Positions 21,584 to 49,683 of a stretch of DNA of 64,000 nt are shown piece after piece. The notes under the pieces were generated by a model. That model was not told where the DNA came from. It saw nothing but the letters and a program-made list of their open reading frames with translations, and did no database searches. The translations under genes and the position numbers were made by a program. This stretch comes from Cornus controversa. Its lineage: Eukaryota > Streptophyta > Magnoliopsida > Cornales > Cornaceae. How positions within the stretch are numbered: position 1 is the first letter of the stretch; every line of letters begins with the position of its first letter. The stretch lies in the NCBI GenBank assembly GCA_026545225.1, contig CM048851.1:36714456-36778455 (forward strand). The letters run 5' to 3'.

Positions 21584-24500
21584 TCAAGATGAAGTTCTCC
21601 ATTGCATCTCGATCTGAATCCGACCATTCTTCGAATCAATGAGGTGGTACCTCTGATTGATTCTCTTGTTGCTGACCACGTCTGAGAGGTTTATATCTAT
21701 ATAACCCAGAGCTTCCTATTTTATAGTCAAACAAAAGAAACATGTGTTATCTAAACTGCTGCTAATAAAAGACAAGCAATTACTGGAACAAGTGCACAAT
21801 TTTGGAACCAATAATTCAAAACATAACAAAGGAAATGGTTCGAAGGATTAAAAACTTCATTCAGAATTAAAAATTTTCAACGGTGAGGAAAAATATAAAA
21901 AAGTGAATCCGTCCCAAAATAACCCAGTTCAACTCAACACCGTCTCTCCAGACTATTTGGAACCATATGAATCTTACTTTGTCATCTTCATATAATTTCT
22001 CACGAATATGATCACTTATAGTTTTATCCTCTTTTATTTTCCCATGCATCCATTTCACTATTGACATTTCAACCATGTCTATTTTTTTTATAAGTTGTTT
22101 ATCAGCAGCCTAATGTTCTGTCCAATTGTAGAATTTATTTTTCAATTCTAAAGATACACATTGAACACACTATGCCATCAAAACTCCGCTATCCAACTAT
22201 AATACTTTAGTTATATAATTAATATTATCCTCAATTTCTCTCTATCATGCCATCAACACACTCCTCTAGGTCTTGACCCTCAATATTCACTACGTCTCCT
22301 CTTGTGTTTTTAGGTTCCAACTAAGAACACAAATTTACCCTTCATATCCTTTATCATGCCCATATATATACTTCTGACTCCAGTCGTTGCTAAAACCCAC
22401 CGTATTATATCTATATGGACTCGTATGAATAGGATTTTTCTTTTTATATATTTCCATTGACCTCCTCAGTAACTAAATAGCTTCCATTGTAGATCTCTCC
22501 GACATAGATCCAAATTGATTACCCAACCCTATCGGTTTACATTTTAGTCATTCAATCGCTCTCTTCCAAAGTTGCATGGTATGACATTTGATAATATGTA
22601 AAACATCACATAATATCCTCATTTCTAAGTATTAAAATACTTTAGCGATATTCTAAATACTACAGAAGAACGATTACAATTTCTTGTTTCCATATCCCCC
22701 AGAAAACCCACTTTCTAAAAGTTGGATCCGTTAAAGTTATAAAATGCAGGATTGTGGCAGAATCAACAAACTGATGAAATAGGTACCTTGGGATGCAGTA
22801 GACCCATCCTTGACGAGGAACTGATAACTTCCACATGAATCCTATCATTCGTGGGTGGTTCATCCAGCATAAACTGAAACTCCTCGTCCCATCTGGGATC
22901 TCTGTTTTTCTTTACAGGCTGTATCGATGTCAAAGAGTCATCAGTTGCAAACAATAAAACTAAACCTACATTGAAATAACTATAAATGGTATTCCAAATC
23001 ATAAAATAATAAGGCTTTAACCAAAGGAAGCATTACAACATGACTGAGGTTCTGCATCAATGTCAAAATAAATAAACATTCAGCTGCCAACAATAAGAAC
23101 TAAACCTACACAAAAAATCTAGAAATGAGAATTTCAGATCTCAAAACATTAAGGCATTTCACAAAAGCAGCATTACAACATGATTGAGGATGACTAACTA
23201 CTCATTAACAAAAGGTCTATATTTTAAAAAAAAAAAAGCTACCTCAAGTGCATTGATAAAGAACAAAAAGATAAGCATAGAAACAGCAGCTTATCTTTTT
23301 ATCACAACTGCCCATTTATCAAAATGTATATCATTTTTTTCTTGGGGGGGGGGGGGGGGGGGAGGGGGTGTAAAAATTTATCAAAGTGTATTGCCATTAA
23401 TAAGGGCCAAATTATGCATCATATTAAAAAGTGACACATTAGAGGATGCAGCAATATCATTGGCAAAAAATTAGCAAATTAATTGTGGCCCACTTGTTGC
23501 TTAGTTTCTTGAGTTTGTCATTTATCACTGAAGAAATAATTAAAATCTACAATTTCAGACATGAATAAGGGCCAAATTATGCATCATATTAAAAAGTGAC
23601 ACATTAGAGGATGCAGCAATATCATTGGCAAAAAATTAGCAAATTAATTGTGGCCCACTTGTTGCTTAGTTTCTTGAGTTTTTCATTTATCACTGAAGAA
23701 ATAATTAAAATCTACAATTTCAGACATGAATATGCGAAATATCTTACTACTACTCAGCCAGGTATATTCCCATAATAATAGTAGGATACAACTCACCTTA
23801 GTTCTTCTCTCCTCTCCTTTGAAAAGTAAGCGCACATGTGGATTTATGTGGTGCTTTCCTTCAAGATCTTGAGCTTCATGGACAATAACCACAAGCAAAC
23901 CTCCACCAGCAGGTGTTCCTTCAGGAGCCTTTTGTACCTCATTTGAATCTTCAATATCCTTTGGCATTTCATCTTCCTTGAAAGGCTTGTACATCACTTC
24001 AAGAACTATCTGCCCACGTGACTTTTCGTTTTGAACATCATTTGGATCCATATTTTTTAGCAGTTCAAGAGTCATAACTTTTGGCTCCTCAGGTGTAAGC
24101 TCTTTCAGTGGTAAGACATTCATGCCCATCTTGTCGTGCTTGCCAACCTTAACAACAGGAATGTGCAGCGTTTGAGAAACATTGAAGAAGGAGAAGGACA
24201 GTTCATTACCATGGGCTGTATCCTAATGGTATATCCTCTACCTCCTAAAGTGGAAGGTGAGGATTCAAGTCTGGACAAAATGGGTGTGAGTTCTTGCCAA
24301 GGTAAAAAAATGGACAACAGTTTATTATCATCACACAGAGCAACCAACTACGTCTAGAAAGCAAGCAGCCTTCATATCACACTTTTATCTTCATCCTTTT
24401 GGCCTAAAAATAAAATACTAAACAGAAACGGGGCCACAGCATAACCTGTCGCCATTCTCCTACTGGTCCAAAAATAATCTGAATAAGAAAGAAAATTTTA

Positions 24501-37037: not shown

Positions 37038-37100
<63 letters not shown>

Positions 37101-37246
37101 CAGGGTAGGCAACGCTCTGTTCATGTGATGTTATATATATATATATATATATTACAGGGTAGGCAACGCTCTGTTCATGTGATGTTATATATATATATAT
37201 ATATATATATATTACAGGGTAGGCAACGCTCTGTTCATGTGATGTT
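37038..37246. repeat. Minisatellite: three 36-bp units separated by AT microsatellites
   Basis: A 60-bp AT run is followed by three identical units (37097-37132, 37151-37186, 37211-37246) beginning ATTACAGGGTAGGC and ending TGTGATGTT. (AT)n tracts of different length separate them. The pattern suggests expansion by slippage or unequal exchange within AT tracts. Confidence 0.92.
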
Positions 37247-38880
37247 GATGGAGATCATTTCCGTTTTAGTGGTCACCATTACAGTGTTCAAAAGTTATGT
37301 GAAAGCAACTTTTTGCCTATAATAAGAAGGAGAGAAAAGACAAGGGAATTGACAGCTTCCTTTGGAAGCAAAATAAAACAAGTTACCAGAGAAAAAAAAA
37401 TTATAGTGTTCATCATTCCACATAATTGGATAATTAACACTCAATCTAGATTAAAAAGACTGAAAGTAAAAGAAAAGGAGGGGTAATTCAAATCGTGTTT
37501 AATTAATTAAAATGTTCTTTTACTAGTTACAAAAATAAAATATATTTTTTTAATTTTCTTTCCACTTTCCTATTCCAAACATGAGAAAATAGCTTTTTAT
37601 TTGCTTTGCCTAGAATTTAAGAAAGAGAGAGATAGAAGAAACAAAATTTAAAAAAAATTATTTGTTGCCTTGATATGTTATATGAGGAAACAAAATACAT
37701 GAAAGTTAATTTGTAGAATTAGGTTTCTAAGATGGTGTTAGTTTGGAAAATTTGTAATAATTTTTCAAAATTAAAAAAATTAAATTGCAATCTGTAACCG
37801 TAAATATTAATTAGTCTATAAGATTTAATATCAATACATATTTCACACTTAATTTTGAAATTTAATTAGGTTATATGTAACATACATGTATTAAATATTT
37901 TTGAAATGTAAATTCAAATGAAAGTAAGATGTAATTGCATATTTTTTCAAAATTTTCAATTTTCACTTTTTAGTAAAATTTGTAATTGTATAATTACAAA
38001 CATACAAATTTTTTTTTCAAATTTTAAAGCTTCAATATATCTAATATTAATGGATGTACAAGTATATATCTTCGAATTTTGTAAATTAAATGCAAATTTA
38101 TTATGGATTTTGAATATACAATATTTATTTATGTATTTATAATTATATCAATATGATCAAATTTATTTAAGACTGTTTTTGTGATACCACATACATACAG
38201 ATATATCAGTCATCATTACAAAGAAATAACTTTGTCATTTTGTAGTAGTAAGGGCAATGTTGTAATTTCACTTAAATATTTTTTTACAGCGCTGACGGCC
38301 GCCTAGTGGACTAAAAAAAATTGAGAAGTGTTCAGCAATAATTTATCCTAAAGAATAAAGACAACAATAGAATGAATACAGTAAAATCCACTCCAGAGTC
38401 CAGACAATTGGCGGGCCTGGGTCGGGCCCACTTACAGAAGTGTTCTAAATTTGGCCAATCCAAATGTGGGCTCTACAAAATAAGTCATGCCCACAAAGTT
38501 CAGAATATCAATAATTAGGCCGGGTATCAACCCAACCACCACCACAAATAAATGCAGCATTTGCACATTTGCAACACCACATCCCCCAAATCACCACTAC
38601 ATTGGACTTGAAATGGCCCTAATTTGGAGCGGATTCATGTGAATTTATATCCAGATCCATTTTTGTATGTAAAGATCCATATTTGAATACGAAATCGAAT
38701 TGAATCATATGAACGTGATTTGTATCCGACCCATATAATTTATACAGGATCCAATAGGGTAAAAAAATGTTTGGGTCAGATCAGAATGGATCTTGGATCA
38801 AATTCACTCCATTTCGAACTCTACTTTTACATGCTAGTGCACACAACCTGTTGGATCACTGTATAATGTTAAAGGAAAGA

Positions 38881-38933
<53 letters not shown>

Positions 38934-40588
38934 TAATGATACACCGAATTTAGTAATTTTTTACAAAAAAAAAAATATATATATCAAGGTGGTGGATCCC
39001 CATCTAGATATATATATATTTTGGAATAGTAAGTAAAAGAGATATGTAAGTGAAATGTGAGGAGTTTGTGGTTATCTTCAAATAAACAACACTTTGTGTG
39101 AGAGAGAGGAAAATGCCCCCACCACGTGCTGAGAGAGGGGGTTGCCAATAACAACTCACGTAATGATAACTGTAAGAAGACAACACTAAACATTGAAGGG
39201 TCATATTCCATCCTCTTATACAATATTAACCCCCTCACACTCGAATGATAAATTTATCAAATAATACAATTTTAGATAAATTTAGGCTTGTCATGAAGCT
39301 AAATAATCAACTCTTAATTAAACTCGAATGATACAAGTATATATCAAAGTGAAGGTCATGACTAGCAATGGTTTTATAAATTAGAGGCTGACTTTGAGAC
39401 AGTTTCTAGAACTATTTCACTTCACCCTTCTTCTCCAAGGAGATTGAAAGAGTTAAAAGAGAAAAATTGATGGCCAATCAATCAAAAAGGAACTTCTTCA
39501 ACTCAAGAGAGACAGCTATGGAGTCGTAGAGAAATAAGAGGGAAAGAAAAAGCAGCTATTGTCAAAGGGGTTTTGAGAATTTTTAAGAGGTATGCAACTT
39601 TAGAATTATTGATGCACAGTCATATACCAAAAAAAATATAGGAGAAAGACAGGGAAAGAAAAGGAAAGGAAAGAAAAGAAAAGGGAAAGAAAGATATAAA
39701 AAAAAAAAAAAGAAAAGATTGAAAGGGCTGCATGCTGCCCCCACTTGAGCAGTTATTGTGCTTATAGCAACTTATACTAGAAGTATTTGAGGAAAAGTAA
39801 CCAAACCAGGAGGCAACTTTATATTCAGAATTATGTATTTAATATTTGGTGGAGGTGATTCAATGACCGACTCCTCTCATTATAGAGGATTCATGATAGT
39901 TTTTATAGAGCAGTATGTAGTTGTCGTAGTATGGTATCTTGTGATATAATTATGGGATATTTAATGTTATCTTTATTTGAATTTTAAGTTAGATCTGCTT
40001 GTTGTTAGGAATTGTGTTTCAGATTTTCATTATAATTTAGTTTCTATTTTAGAGCTGTAATTTATTGATAATTTCATATTAGGCGCGTTTTGGAATTCAA
40101 GTAATTATAATGCTTGTGTGACAAGAAATATGTTTTGAGACTTTATAAATAGAGGTGAGTTATGTGATGAGATGAGAGAGTATGTATAATTTCGGAGGAA
40201 CGATACCAAGAGAGAGTGAAAAAAAGTGTGTGGTAGGTAGGGATGACAATTTGTCCCCTCCTGGATCATCCCGTTTATGAAACCATTTAAGGAAATTGGG
40301 CGGGGATTGGATTTAGGAAAAATAACCAGCGCGGTGTAAGGCTCTACCCTGACGTGTACCCACCCCACCCCTTTTAGATGTATATATATATATATAAAGA
40401 AAACCTATATATATTTCCTTCTCTGTATGTTTGTGTGCGTGTGTTTTATTATTTTTTTATTCGTGGATGGAAAAATAAGGACTGGGTTAAATTTTTGCAT
40501 ATATATTAAATTTTTGTCTATATAAATTTTTTCTGATATAAAAGAAACCTAAATATTAAATTTTTGCCTTAAAAAAAATCTAAATGAT

Positions 40589-41564
40589 TGTTGAAAAATA
40601 TATGCGTATATGTTACTATTTAAAATATAAAACAATTGTACTAACATGTTAAATCACATAAATTATATATCCTCTAAAACATCTTAAGAAAATCTCTTAT
40701 CATTTCACAATATATAAAAAACCTTTTATAAGTTTCTATATCAAGTAAAATTATAACAAGTGTAATAGCTAGTCTAGACTATATAGTACATATATCACAT
40801 GTTATATAAACTATAAAAAATATAACACAATCAAGTAACTCATGCTAATTTTATATTTTATAACTTAAAATAAATATTGAAAACTGTAAATCGAGGCTAG
40901 AGTTAGATTCTATGTCCTTAAGACAATCGATGCCCGCATGGTGCTAAACGGACTTCATGGCGTTTATCTCCCAGGATACAACGATATCTCACCGATCAAA
41001 AGCAGCACTCCAATTTGATTGTTTTAGCGAACTAGTTTTACTCTCTTGGACTTGACTCACTTGACCTTTGATATCAGATCCAAACATAATGACTCACGAA
41101 GAAGGTTGACGTCTTGAGTTACTTTGTAGCAAGTGATAGAATACTACGCTGGGAAAGAAAAGAGAGAAATCTGAAAAATCTATTCATATCCAAATGAGAC
41201 TTAGTAACCTATTTATAAACATAGTGGTACCCTTTCAGAAGTACCCGAATAGTCATGAGAACCCTTTCAAAAGTACTCGAATAGTCATGAGACATATACT
41301 TTCGTGCTAAAACACTAAGGGCTAGTTTGGTATACAGGAATAGAAGTGAAATTGAATGGTCATTCCACCTTTGATTCTCTTTCTCTCGTTTGTTGTGTTA
41401 CATTAAAAATGGAATGATCATTCCAACTCATTCCATTGGAATGCTCATTCCAACAAAATCATTCCACTTCTTGAGTTATTGAATGATCATTCAATTTCCA
41501 CTTATTATTAAAATCATCATCTCTCTCTTCATTAATGTATCTCTCTCTTTTACAACTAACTTTA

Positions 41565-41614
<50 letters not shown>

Positions 41615-42070
41615 GGTATATAGGTTATTGTTTTATCACTTTTAGTTTTTAATAAAGTATTAATTTTTTTTCGTATAAAATATTATATTAATATTGACTA
41701 GAAGAAAAAGACGAATTATATCTTGATTTATAAAGTTTTAACTAAATGGGTAATTAATATTTTTTTTCACATGGTAATTAAATTAAATTGGCAAAATGTC
41801 CTATTTTTAAAACTGATTCTATTTTATATAGAAAAATATAACATGTTGGAAGGTAATACCATTTCATTCCTACATCATTCTCTATCTGTAGCCAAACATT
41901 AGAATGAGAATAGTCATTACATTCTATTCTCATTCCATTCCCACTTCATTTCATTCATGCGTACCAAACTAGCCCTAATAGTGTCTATTCGATACTAACA
42001 GATACTTTTAGTGTTTGTTCAGTGTGAATCGCATTATTTCACCTTCAATTTTCATTCAATTTTTCTAACA
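40589..42070 (-). repeat. 3' LTR of the element (carries a MITE)
   Basis: About 820 bp after removing the 657-bp MITE and one 3-bp target copy. It matches 44245-45331 along its length, for example at ATGTCCTTAAGACAATCGAT and the TTGGACTTGACTCACTTGACC block, with scattered substitutions. Confidence 0.9.
41319..41975. mobile_element. PIF/Harbinger (Tourist-like) MITE inside the 3' LTR
   Basis: The ends are GGGCTAGTTTGGTA at both termini (inverted). The flanks are TAA at 41316-41318 and 41976-41978, the 3-bp target size of PIF/Harbinger elements. The other LTR shows the unoccupied site ACACTAATAGTG, confirming the boundaries. The interior is AT-rich, includes an (AT)n microsatellite at about 41568-41611, and has no transposase. 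Confidence 0.92.
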
Positions 42071-44244
42071 ATCCCCCACATGAATGAAAATTAATATAAT
42101 TTGAAAAGTAGACTTTGACTTACACTAAGAGAGTACAGTTGAAAAGTTATTGCATCAGGATAGATAGTTTTTGGCCTTGAATCTTCCGTAGTGTAATACT
42201 ATGAATTTACTTGGCTAACTGGTGACGTAAAGTCTTGAACTATTTAACTGTTTGTATAAAATCAAACAATAGTATACACACAATACCTTTTCGCACAAAC
42301 TTGGTTCTTTCGATTGTGTTCATTTCAGCCTTAAACAAATTATGTTATTCATAAGTGCTCTAGAGAACTTAGTCTTATCATTCTCATAGAAGCGGCCCAC
42401 TTCACACTCGTATAGGTGATTCTCTATTAAAAGTATCATGCTATACTCCACTTGGATTTTCAAGGTATAGGAATCACTAAAAGCATTTGTTTAACCTGAT
42501 ACCCACGACAGACAGCATTATGTCATCATAAGAATGGGTAGAAGACAAAATCTTCGAGTGTTACTGGCGAGTCACTCAAAAATTTCAATTGTCCATTTGA
42601 ATCTAGATATTGGGATCTCCAGTCAGCTAGATAGGGGTTTTATTAAGGTAACTCGTTAGTTTTAGGCTTTAAGTCTATTTCCCTCGATGACATCATCACT
42701 TGCTCTCTGATTCAACATTTCTTATATGTGGCCACCAGGTTGTTCTTTGATTTATATACTCTATAAAGATTTTCTCATTTGAGAGCAGTGGCGCATGTGT
42801 TAGCCAATTTGGAATATCCTTTAAGAATTTTACAACTTCTTAATCATTCTTATTTTATTTAAAGCAACTAGCTTATATTCCATGACTACACCTTTAATAT
42901 TAAAGACATGTCTATTCGTGGATCTAAAGTCTTTTATATCCCTTAATTCTAATGTCGATCATTGATAAATGTAATCATTAATTTTAAGATGGATCTCAAC
43001 CACCTCAATACATTTAGTATTCTCTCGGATTGCTTGTATATCAAGTTATGTGCAACTTGTCATTTAGATCACAACCACATAGTTAGAAAACATATCAATC
43101 TAGAGTATCTTTAGCATGCATCATACTCATTGACATGTAACCACCTAACTTATGTCATTGATTTAGTGTTTGTTTCAATCTACACATAGATTTTTCAAGT
43201 TTGCACACTCTTTGTTCATGATCTAAAACTATGAACCCTCCTTGGTTATTTCAAATCAATTAAGTCACGTATATCATTGTAATTTAATGATAGAGGTACA
43301 ACACTCTTTTGTATGGGTGAAAATAAACTCTAGTTAATTTTCTTTCACATGTGCCAAATTTGAGTTAGAACATTCATTAATCCACATAAGTAGGAAAATT
43401 AACTTGATTCCAAGCTTATAATATATCTCTTATCCACCCTTGGATTTAATATACATTAATTAATATAAAGACCAAGTAGAACTCATTGAAGAACGAGTTC
43501 TCTCACTAAGGTTATTTCTAATACAACCTTATTTTGGCAGTAGATAATTTTCTTAAGAAGATTTAACCTTCATATTTGATAAATAATACAATCCTCATGT
43601 CGGAGTAGATATGATGAGGAATATCGACTCATCACCCTCTAATTTGACTACTAGGTTGATTTTAGAAATTATGATAAACACCATTTATTATGTACCCTCA
43701 AATTGTCTTATAATTTCTAATATGTTGTATATCTCTCTAACACCATGTGTCTTAGAGAATTTCTCAACATTTCTCCTTATTTTCGACAAGAATAATTATC
43801 TCTATTACACTTGTCATTCGTCATATTATAAAAATATTGATAAATAAAACACTAATTTAAATGTAACACTACATCAATATTTTATAAATATTGAATATCA
43901 TACTTAAACTTGTCACCAAGATATAAGCATATTACATGCAAATTATAAAACTACCAAATAAAGACATTCAACTCAAATCATATGATTTGCATATAGATGA
44001 ATGTACAAAATAATAAAATGTATATTCAATATCGCACCAATATTGAATTAAGGCATACCACAAACTTAACAATATTATATCACAAATATTGAATTTCACA
44101 AAATAAACAATTCTCTATGTGGTACTGATATTTCACAAATATTTAGCTAATATTGAACTCGTCAATATGTTCTACGTAGTATAATATCACTATCTTAAAT
44201 AGTATCATATATTCAATAGTAGAGCAAATCGATTATCTTAGGAT

Positions 44245-45331
44245 TGTTGAAAAATATATGCGTATATGATACTATTTAAGATATAAAATAATTGTACTAA
44301 CATGTTAAATCACATAAAATAAATATATATCCTGTAAAACATCGTAAGAAAATCTCTTACCATTCCACAATATAAAAAAAACATTCTATAAGTTTCTATA
44401 TCAAGTAAGATTATAACACATGTAATAATCTAGACTACTAAACTCATGTATAGTACATATATCACATATTATATAAACCATATGAAATATAATACAATCA
44501 AATAACTCATGCTAATTTTATATTTTATAATTTAAAATAAATACTGAAGAACCTATAGATCGAAACTAAAGTTAGACTCTATGTCCTTAAGACAATCGAT
44601 GCCCCGCATGGTGTTGAACAGACTCAATGGCGTTTGTCTCCCATGATACAACGATGTATTATCGATCAAAAGCAACACTCCAATTTGATCGTCTTACCAC
44701 CAATGTGTTGTAGTATCTTGGACTTGACTCACTTGACCTTTGGATCCAAACCTAAACACAATGGCTCATTAGGAAGATTCACATCTTGAGTTACTTTGTA
44801 GGAAGTGATCAAATACTAAGTTGGGAAAGAAAGAGAGATGTCTGATAGATGTGTTACTTTGTAGGAAGTGATCAAATATTACGTTGGGAAAGAAAGAGAG
44901 AAGTCTGAAAAATCTATTCATATCCAAATGAGACTTAAGGGACCTATTTATAGGCCCTTTCAAAAGTACCCGATTAATCATGAGACATGTACTTTCATGC
45001 TAAAGGTTGAGAATCAAACTGTTTCACTTCAATCGCCTTCCGCTGTGGGTATCAACCGTACTGAAATGGGATTTTTACAAGAAAGAATTACTTATACTAA
45101 AGAAGCGTCCATAACTTTTATTCAAGCAGTTTATGTACCTGCAACGATTTGACCGACTCGGCTCCCGTTACGACATTTGCATATTTAGATGCTACTACCG
45201 TACTATCAAGAGGATTAGTTGCCAAAGCTATCAACACTAATAGTGTCTCTTAGATACTAACTGACACTTGGTGTCTTTTTAGTGTGAATTGTACTATTTC
45301 ACCTTCAATTTTTTATTTAATTTTTCTAACA
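44245..45331 (-). repeat. 5' LTR of the element (carries plastid DNA)
   Basis: Homologous to 40589-42070 but without the MITE. It holds an extra segment of about 229 bp (45005-45233) derived from plastid atpB. There is also a short internal duplication near 44790-44900, where GTTACTTTGTAGGAAGTGATC is repeated. Confidence 0.9.
45005..45233 (+). pseudogene. atpB: Nuclear insertion of plastid atpB fragment (NUPT)
   Basis: From about 45034 the plus strand resembles the chloroplast gene for ATP synthase beta subunit: GCCTTCCGCTGTGGGT, then a stretch reading [19 protein letters not shown] and IQAVYVPA, then CATATTTAGATGCTACTACC. After a frameshift it reads [11 protein letters not shown]. Substitutions and indels break the frame. 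The insertion is absent from the other LTR, where the sequence runs straight from GCTAAA into ACACTAATAG. The first 29 bases are filler I cannot place. Confidence 0.9.
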
Positions 45332-45359
45332 ATGATAACATAAACGGGGCGGGGCGAGG

Positions 45360-46376
45360 AAAGTTAAATGGTTTCGGAGATGGGGCTTGGGGATGATTTT
45401 GTAAACAATTACGAGACGAAAAAAGTTAAATGGTTGCGGGATAGGGAAAGCAAAACCCGTCCCACCCCGTTGCCATCCCTAATGGTAGGCATGTTTTTCG
45501 CGTGAGTGTGTTTGATTTATCTCGCTTTTATGATTGTAAGGAGATGATATGTTTCCGATGTGCTGAACAAAAGGAGATTAATTTCAAACACTTATCTCTT
45601 ATCTTGCAAGTTGTTGATTACGCTCATCTCTTCACTTCATCATACAAACACATGTGGATTACCGATCAAAATTTCTTTAATAATTGCCCCTGTTCCTAAT
45701 GTATTGTTTGTCAAATACTAGGAATGCAATTTTTTCTTGGTATTTCCATGACACATGTGCCGAGTAGATATCACTTGTATGTAGGTGCGATGTCACATCA
45801 ATATTTTTTTTTGAATTGTGCTCGGTAATTTTTTTTTCATAGTCGGGTTGTATTAACCTAACCAAATATATGTAGTCATTTCCATTTTGAAACTTTAACA
45901 AGGCTAGTAGTTGCATTTAGCTCCCCTTTAATAAGGAGTAAATTCTGAACTTAACTTGTACATACCCTTTAATAAAGGTTAATGTAGTCGTTCCAAGCTC
46001 CATGAGCTCACCCCTTTGGGAAGTGAAGTAGATTGTTCGAGCTTTTTGAGCTCACCCCTTTAATAAGGAAATTTGTCACTCGATCCTTTAATAAGAGTAT
46101 TTGTGAACTTCACTCAACTCCTCCTTTTAATAAGAAAATAACTTTTTAATAAAGGGAGAACTTTTTTAAGGGGGGCTCTTTGAGAGAGAGACATTTTCAG
46201 AGTTTCACTCGGCTTGCCTTTTTAGCAAGGAGAGTCATTGTAACCCTGAACTTCACTTAGCCCTTTAAAGGGTTTGTAGTCTCGCTTCTTTAATAAGGAG
46301 ATTCGTAGTCTTGAACTTCACTTAGCTCTCACCTTTAGTAAGGAAAGTCATAATCCCAAGTTTTGTGAGCTCACCC
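45360..46376. repeat. Left arm of a large inverted repeat
   Basis: The reverse complement of this arm matches 48661-49683 over about 1 kb, including TGATTATGACTTTCC-type and AATTTCAAACACTTATCTCT-type words and the right end of the hAT-like element. Inside, a degenerate motif (CTTTAATAAGGA followed by 'tgaacttcac' type words) recurs about ten times between 45930 and 46390. Confidence 0.9.
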
Positions 46377-47800
46377 TTTTAATGAGAGGATTAGATATTC
46401 TTTCCAATGTCTGGGGCCAATATGCTCCCAGTATTTGTCAATGAATGACTCTACAATGCCCCCAGTTGAGGGTCAGATTTTCCATTGTTGGGTACTTAGC
46501 ACTCCAAGTTGTAACTTGATCGCTTCTTAGCTCGTCGATACCATGCTCGGTTAAGAAGTGATAGGTGCAAGTGATGATAGGTTGTTTACAGGTAGATGTG
46601 TAACCTACCACAAGAGGTCCACCATCACTGTTGTTGAGGTGAAGAGCCTGAATCACAAACCACTTTTCTGGTTTGTCTATGTTGAATTACCTTCCAACTT
46701 CATTTATTTCGTCAGGTGACTTTAGAGTGAGGACCTCATGTCAAGATCATGCTATTGTTTCGTGAGCCCAATCGACTCGATCCCGTTAACTTGACAGCTG
46801 AAGCTCGATCAATTGAGCAACTCAAAGCTCGGTCAATAGATCCGTTGCCAGTTCAGCAAATCTATTGGCAATCTGATTCGACACGAGTTTCTTGCAAGAC
46901 CAATGAAATGTGACCAGTACCAACACCAAATCGCCAACAAATTTTTGTATCACCGTTGACAAAAAGAAACCAAGTTATCATTGAAGAAAATACTTGAGCA
47001 CCTACTCCTGAATCCAAAATAAAATGCAAATTGAACTAGAGTGACGCCTTAAATAAAATAGAAACCTAGATACGTTGCCATTTGATTTATGCTTACAAGT
47101 TACCACAAATCAAAGCAACTCGATACAGTATGAACTATTTAGCTAAATCTAATAGATATAAAATTATAAATATAAGGGTTTATCTTATATTTGCTTGATA
47201 TCTAAAAAAATCATTTAAGTCATTTCCATTCTTCTCTATCATTATTCTCATCATAGATCACATCATTATTTATCATTGTTGCAATTATTGGTTCAAAATG
47301 CTCCCCAACCTCTCATTTAAATTATTATCATTTTCTTATTGTCAATTAAAACAACAAAACTTAGTCATGAATTGCCTAATCAATTCATCCAAAATTAATG
47401 TAAAAAAAAAATACATAAGAGAATTTATTAATGTGCAAGGTTCCTGAACAACCTAACAAAGGCCACATTCATTGATCCGATAACCCAAGCCCAAGTCCAA
47501 TGCACCATAGAACTAAATTAAACAATAAAATCTTAACAAAGGCCACTTTCAAATACAGAAAATTTGAATAAAACCCAAATTTGAACATGGGTCAAGATGA
47601 ACTTTGGTTTCTAAACTTTCCCTCTCTCTTACTTTATCACAACAAAATATGTGCATGAACAATCTTTATTCTGATCATAAAGCATCCTAATAACAATATG
47701 CAGACAACATGGACTTTAATCAAATGGTCGGTGCCCAATGAAAGTGCCTTATAACAACTACTCAAATCTGTATGTATATGTATGTATGTATGTATGTATA

Positions 47801-47852
<52 letters not shown>

Positions 47853-48660
47853 AACCCGCGTTAATCAAGTGGTCGGTGTCCAATGCAGGTGGCAATATTA
47901 TTACTATTCAACTGACTGCCAAGAGTGTCAAAATTATCAACCTCTCAATCTTCCCCAAGTCCCAGCATTTTATTATATATATATATATATAAGCTATTGT
48001 TTTAAAGTTTTCATGAAATTTGGATAAAGAAAATTGGTGTGTTGACATTTTGATAGTGATGGTGTTAGTGAAAAGGATTGTGGATATCTATATCCTAACC
48101 CAAATATAAAGAAGAGTGCTTTTCCTTTTTTTTTTCTTTCCCTTCCAAGCTTATCAAATGTTGAACATTTTGTGATACCTTATACTCTTATATTTTATAA
48201 AATGTCACCTCAAAAAAGTAACTCAATTGCTCTATCTCCCTCTTTAGTTAACTTTAATTGTAGTTCACATGTCTTTTCTTTAACTAAAGTAACTTTCCTA
48301 TGTCTAAGTACTACAATTTGGTAGGCCATATAAGAGAAGTGGATGAACAAAAAGCTGCTGGTTACCGTTGTAACACACACATATATATACATATATGATT
48401 TGTGTTACATTACTCAAATTAAGATCAACCTCATGATAAAATTTACTCTCTTCATAGTTATTTAAGATTTGAACTTACTAAAATATATTATTTTAACAAA
48501 TTTATAATGATATTTGATGGAGTTTCATTCTAGATTACATGTTATATTTGGTCACACAAAGTCGGTGTTTTGAAATTAGAATTTTTAAACTAAAATTTCT
48601 CTAATTCTAATTTCAAGACACAAATTTCATGAAACAAAACATAACAAAAGAGAATTATTG
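46377..48660. other. Spacer between inverted-repeat arms
   Basis: 2.28 kb with no recognisable protein domain. The portion up to about 46980 reads like transposable-element sequence (a 72-codon minus-strand ORF at 46438-46656 has no known domain). The rest is AT-rich with (AT)n tracts near 47800-47840 and 47975-47990. A short diverged repeat ('gtcggtg.ccaatg') occurs at about 47724 and 47870. Confidence 0.5.
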
Positions 48661-49683
48661 GGGTGAGCTCACAAAACTTGGGATTACGACTTTCCTTACT
48701 AAAGGTGAGAGCTAAGTGAAGTTCAAGACTACGAATCTCCTTATTAAAGAAGCGAGACTACAAACCCTCTAAAGGGCTAAGTGAAGTTTAGGGTTACAAT
48801 GACTTTCCTTGCTAAAAAGGCAAGCCGAGTGAAACTCTGAAAATATCTCTCTCTCAAAGAGCCTCCCCTTAAAAAAGTTCTCCCCTTATTAAAAAGCTAT
48901 TTCTTTATTAAAGGAAGGAGTTGAGTGAAGTTCACAAATACTCTTATTAAAGGGTCGAGCGACAAAATTCCTTATTAAAGGGGTGAGCTCATGAAGCTCG
49001 AACAATCTACTTCACTTCCCAAAGGGGTGAGCTCATGGAGCTTGGAACGACTACATTAACCTTTATTAAAGGGTACGTACGAGTTAAGTTCAGAATTTAC
49101 TCCTTATTAAAGGGGAGCTAAATGCAACTACTAGCCTTGTTAAAGTTTCAAAATAGAAATGACTACATATATTTGGTCAGGTTAATATAACCTGACTATG
49201 AAAAAAAAATTACCGAGCACAATTCAAAAAAAAATATTGATGTGACATCGCACCTACATACAAGTGATATCTACTCGGCACATGTGTCACGGAAATACCA
49301 AGAAAAAATTGCATTCCTAGTATTTGACAAACAATACATTAGGAACAGGGGCAATTATTAAGGGAATTTTGATTGGTAATCCACATGTGTTTGTATGATA
49401 AAGTGAAGAGATGAGCGTAATCAACAACCTGCAAGATAAGAGATAAGTGTTTGAAATTAATCTCCTTTTGTTCAGTACAGCGAAAACATATCATCTCATT
49501 ACAATCATACAAGCGAGATAAATCAAACACACTTATGCGAAAAACATGCCTACCATTAGGGATGGCAACGGGGCGGGACGGGTTTTGCTTTCCCTATCCC
49601 CGCAACCATTTAACTTTTTTTCGTCCCGTAACTGTTTACAAAATCATCCCCAAACCCCATCTCCAAAACCGTTCAACTTTCAA
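48661..49683. repeat. Right arm of a large inverted repeat, with truncated hAT-like end
   Basis: Inverted copy of 45360-46376. It contains the same hAT-like terminus, starting TAGGGATGGCAACGG at 49557, preceded by CCTACCAT, which is the complement of the ATGGTAGG target octamer at the left copy. Homology stops near 49683 inside the hAT-like element; the far end of that element is missing here. Confidence 0.9.

Follow-up and report, generated by a model that had tools for sequence, protein, structure and literature searches.

The DNA of Cornus controversa considered here, a window of 64,000 nucleotides (C7:36714456-36778455, on contig CM048851.1 of assembly GCA_026545225.1), carries a nested stack of transposons in what is most likely intergenic DNA, some 4.6 kb upstream of where an apparent gene on the minus strand begins. 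Positions below are those of the window, features are on the plus strand unless stated otherwise, and relatives were sought in the genome of 771.7 Mb on 61 contigs. A preliminary description had named as layers a hAT element, a long terminal repeat (LTR) element, a miniature inverted-repeat transposable element (MITE), a piece of plastid atpB and a pair of inverted arms, and all of these are present. The stack is real, mostly well ordered, and ordinary in kind.

Central to it is a non-autonomous hAT-like element of about 490 bp (40238-45481; ends TAGGGATG/CATCCCTA), split by the LTR element. Read directly, its target is GTGGTAGG on the left (40230-40237) and ATGGTAGG on the right (45482-45489), agreeing at seven of eight bases. 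The octamer TGGTAGG given earlier does mark the hAT target, but the string consists of the seven bases common to both 8-bp copies. Across the family (40 places scored of 197 candidates) the two target copies match at six or more of the eight bases in seven of nine loci, and at five and four in the remaining two. Like other non-autonomous hAT elements, this one has an 8-bp target duplication and ends of the type TAGGGATGRCAA; unlike them, the window copy holds a 4.7-kb insertion.

The hAT had been placed in an older repeat, which is correct at one remove: its direct host appears to be a solo-LTR-like element (40003-45590; TGTTAGG...AAACA; about 335 bp without the hAT), and it is that element that sits within an older multicopy repeat. 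The flanking targets of the solo-LTR-like element, CTTGT (39998-40002) and CTTAT (45591-45595), are identical at four of five bases. The element is high-copy (40 places scored of 1520 candidates in a search with 40003-40237), and two of three fetched relatives are, by eye, single LTRs with exact 5-bp targets (CTTTC in L095 with L098, AATTT in L096 with L100); the third (L097 with L099) is without a target duplication. Some genome copies are evenly spaced at 782-941 bp, as in small tandem LTR elements. All three relatives are contiguous across the site that the hAT occupies in the window, with a single GTGGTAG followed by CATG, one base of the target being changed in L096. Further out, the left remnant of the older repeat (39829-39997) has weak matches of 63-66% to L003/L055 on C3 and L004 on C1, which adjoin a homologue of the right part of the repeat. 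In L003 and L004 the two parts of the repeat are directly joined, giving an empty site for the solo-LTR-like element, and genome matches trace the continuation of the repeat through 46384-46833.

Within the hAT lies an LTR element of about 4.7 kb (40589-45331) with the terminal features of an LTR retrotransposon: two direct LTRs, TG...CA ends, and a target duplication within the 4-6 bp range, here ATGAT (40584-40588 and 45332-45336). Its 5' LTR (40589-42070) holds the MITE and a deletion of about 32 bp, and its 3' LTR (44245-45331) a 63-bp tandem duplication and the plastid piece. The tandem duplication (44787-44912) is absent from the 5' LTR. The internal region (42071-44244) contains two open reading frames of at least 50 amino acids, and no long frame was found in the window copy, the longest having 78 amino acids; in the interior of one relative (L053), two of the stop-free stretches listed reach at least 90 residues (135 and 91). 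The earlier inference that the LTR element came later than the hAT is borne out by its relatives: in all eight hAT relatives that were aligned (of nine; L059, with an incomplete right part, was omitted) the site is empty and ATGAT single, with an exact copy in seven and one mismatch in L060. That the LTR element is nested in the hAT, and the hAT in its own host, is close to certain. The arrangement resembles the nested LTR retrotransposons of plants, for which element-in-element insertion with target duplications is described in the available portions of PMC6911290 and PMC7251063, the latter also recording conflict between nesting and LTR age; it differs from the cases in those portions in that the host of the LTR element is here a hAT and that an inverted copy of repair type is present.

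Two further insertions followed, each into one LTR only, as had been proposed. A MITE (41319-41975; end GGGCTAGTTTGG) occupies the 5' LTR alone, between TAA duplications (41316-41318 and 41976-41978). Its family was sampled at 40 places of 1633 candidates, the window copy included; an exact 3-bp duplication was present in 19 of 22 copies (21 relatives plus the window), and in 17 it was TTA/TAA. The oriented family consensus, C-W-C-TTA-G-W-G, agrees with the preference of PIF/Tourist elements for the palindromic target CWCTTAGWG, and judged by its target the MITE is PIF/Tourist-like, sharing with Tourist/PIF-Harbinger MITEs the 3-bp TTA/TAA target and the short inverted ends. Palindromy of the target against shuffled flanks was borderline (37/76, p 0.047), and a literature search for the motif string CWCTTAGWG found no paper.

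The 3' LTR, in turn, carries what is probably a decayed 198-bp plastid atpB fragment (45035-45232), again in that LTR only. At the protein level, 48 codons that run across its left boundary (45003-45146) match chloroplast ATP synthase beta (E 1.6e-8); the roughly 30 bp preceding the piece are, by comparison with relatives, ordinary LTR sequence. Elsewhere in the assembly the piece occurs at only three places, all partial. LTR relatives read ...GGTTGAGAATC...TTCAATC|AACACTAATAG at this site, the plastid piece being inserted at the bar; at the right junction ATC is common to piece and LTR, and no LTR base has been lost. From these junctions the fragment most likely served as filler when a break was repaired by end joining, a route of capture reported for organelle pieces in the available part of PMC6215612. 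The nuclear plastid DNA segments described in that part are likewise short organelle pieces with microhomology at one junction; the window piece stands apart from them in sitting inside an LTR, 8 bp away from the target that the MITE took in the 5' LTR.

The claim that each LTR serves as the empty-site control for the other holds only roughly. The 5' LTR has lost about 32 bp just left of the plastid insertion point, with the MITE 8 bp to the right of that point, and the clean controls are the relatives. Among 28 relative LTR loci (40 places scored of 653 candidates), 14 had a site readable by pattern, and the MITE, the plastid piece and the 5' LTR deletion were found at none of these 14. The MITE query gave weak matches in L023 and L027 (64-67% over about 140 bp, in its AT-rich middle), with no MITE end at the site. 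A MITE once present in both LTRs and later excised from the 3' LTR was considered and rejected, since none of the readable relative sites has one. Nor is the plastid piece a product of excision, because it lies 8 bp from the MITE site and no LTR base is missing; excision of Tourist-type elements is generally precise, according to the available part of PMC4561436.

Three lesions thus fall within about 8 bp at the palindrome ACACTAATAGTGT across the two LTRs (41305-41325 and 45030-45240): the end of the 5' LTR deletion, the plastid insertion and the MITE target. The cluster was noticed post hoc, so the coincidence is assigned no probability. The string TAGGGATGGCAA had six hits in the literature, of which none, judged by title, deals with transposons. 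It seems quite improbable that ACACTAATAGTGT is a fragile or transposase-targeted site in this LTR family; if it were, breaks close to palindromic targets of PIF type might attract the capture of plastid DNA.

The remaining layer is an inverted duplication. The left arm (45359-46376) comprises the right end of the hAT, the right end of the solo-LTR-like element and part of the older repeat; the right arm (48661-49681, minus strand) is a truncated inverted copy of it. The arms are about 1 kb each, about 95.6% identical and separated by a 2.3-kb spacer. The left arm is the parental one, because there, as in the relatives, the older repeat continues to about 46833 and because both hAT ends are found there. 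That the hAT preceded the duplication, as first proposed, is confirmed by the identical junction of hAT and flank in both arms. Likewise, about 90 bp immediately to the right of the hAT, present in relatives, are missing from the window, and as both arms carry this loss it too predates the duplication.

Templated repair or template switching would account for a copy truncated at both ends, at which no target duplication was seen by eye. Past the right arm, the only homology to the left hAT flank is a single weak match of 39 bp. The spacer from 46834 to 48580 had, among the places listed (40 scored of 79 candidates), no match except one to a simple repeat within the spacer itself. A small hairpin repeat (48540-48649), of which 48580-48649 matches three other places, stops within a few bases of the right arm's inner boundary. 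Arms of about 1 kb flanking a 2.3-kb spacer also recall a foldback or Mutator-type element with long terminal inverted repeats. Such a transposon was rejected for the arms and is very improbable: the left arm forms part of an unbroken older stack that reaches past both its ends, the spacer consists of the continuation of the older repeat followed by the stretch just described, and the outer ends lie inside the hAT, again with no target duplication seen by eye.

When the duplication occurred relative to the LTR element is the point at which the preliminary description fails. It had reasoned that the LTR element, being found in the left copy only, must have come after the duplication. The right arm, however, comes no nearer than 22 bp to the LTR-element target (45332-45336), and because the copied slice ends before that target, the absence of the LTR element from the right arm is uninformative on order. 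The inference is invalid, and its direction probably wrong. The clock is what orders these two events, and the only thing that does. Once the MITE, the plastid fragment and a single tandem unit are taken out, comparison of the LTRs yields 100 differences over 772 sites (67 transitions, 33 transversions; Kimura two-parameter distance 0.144, bootstrap 0.116-0.175), and comparison of the inverted arms 45 over 1021 (38 transitions, 7 transversions; 0.046, bootstrap 0.034-0.060). Divergence between the LTRs is thus about three times that between the arms, with intervals that do not overlap; transversions stand at 4.3% against 0.7%, about sixfold, and both contrasts are marked in Fisher tests (all changes, p 7e-11; transversions, p 3e-7). 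Of these 45, three fall immediately outside the arm at its inner boundary, making the arms appear slightly too old, and the LTR alignment is faulty in a few columns next to where the inserts were taken out; these blemishes are immaterial at this effect size. The preliminary description had itself named LTRs more diverged than arms as the outcome that would refute its order, and this is the outcome obtained. On this divergence, insertion of the LTR element probably came before the inverted duplication.

The reverse order would need the arms, 2.3 kb apart, to have been kept alike by gene conversion after an early duplication. Nesting does not forbid a duplication that came first, and inverted repeats are plausible substrates for conversion. 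Conversion is also proposed for similar paradoxes between LTRs in the accessible part of PMC7251063. Against this stand the threefold excess of LTR divergence, the sixfold excess of transversions, and the even spread of the arm differences, among which no converted patch was detected (42 difference positions; maximum gap p 0.50; gap sum of squares p 0.19). Duplication before the LTR element is accordingly possible but unlikely.

Several observations nevertheless weigh against the order favoured here. Conversion of the whole arm would leave no patches to detect. An order read from divergence is weak evidence: a quarter of nested LTR elements across fifteen plant species (1042/4126, 25%) are less similar between their LTRs than their hosts are, as given in the available text of PMC7251063. 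In a tree of 30 LTRs the window pair was joined as sisters in none of 200 bootstrap trees; four of seven other nearby same-strand pairs, taken as single elements by inference from position, were joined with strong support and three were not. At a distance of 0.134 over 576 sites, the window LTRs are nearly as far apart as is typical of the family (median 0.154), and seven of the relatives listed are nearer to the 5' LTR than the 3' LTR is. The divergence of the LTRs could thus be inflated. At the base of the stack, identity of L003 and L004 to the older repeat is only 63-71%, making that empty site the least secure.

The same tree and distances raise a separate reading, in which the LTRs were reshaped by exchange with family copies, or represent separate integrations, and their divergence does not date the insertion. 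The tree does set the two apart, and each has nearer relatives elsewhere. Yet the ATGAT targets match on both sides, sisterhood is not rejected by the approximately unbiased test (p-AU 0.34), and the tree is star-like, with the three other unjoined pairs behaving likewise. Exchange or separate integration is on balance unlikely.

The history that we favour, and regard as quite probable as a whole, therefore runs from older repeat through solo LTR, hAT and LTR element to inverted duplication. As empty sites or junctions show, an older multicopy repeat first gained an LTR-type element, now solo-LTR-like (target CTTAT), which then received the non-autonomous hAT of about 490 bp (target GTGGTAGG); the hAT in turn gained the LTR element of about 4.7 kb, without long reading frames (target ATGAT). 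After the LTR element, a PIF/Tourist-type MITE entered the 5' LTR (target TAA) and the 3' LTR acquired the 198-bp atpB fragment. With the hAT already in place, as the shared junction shows, 1.02 kb spanning its right end gave rise to an inverted copy some 2.3 kb further downstream, probably after the LTR element.

The apparent gene beside the stack is represented by exon-like stretches on the minus strand (24463-35191), one of which has a C2 domain (Pfam C2, E 7e-24) and another an N-terminal membrane-like segment; three further stretches that were tried are without a Pfam match. We take this gene to resemble a plant synaptotagmin. Near-identical tandem duplications lie at 23395-23724 (165 bp, 99%) and 30780-30983 (102 bp, 98%), and at 37095-37250 a unit of about 33 bp, ACAGGGTAGGCAACGCTCTGTTCATGTGATGTT, occurs three times with TA runs between the copies.

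In light of the above, this stack illustrates how much can be read from nesting: the absence of a layer bears on timing only where the copied segment includes the place at which that layer inserted. Relatives elsewhere in the genome supply the empty sites by which most of the layers are put in a firm order.

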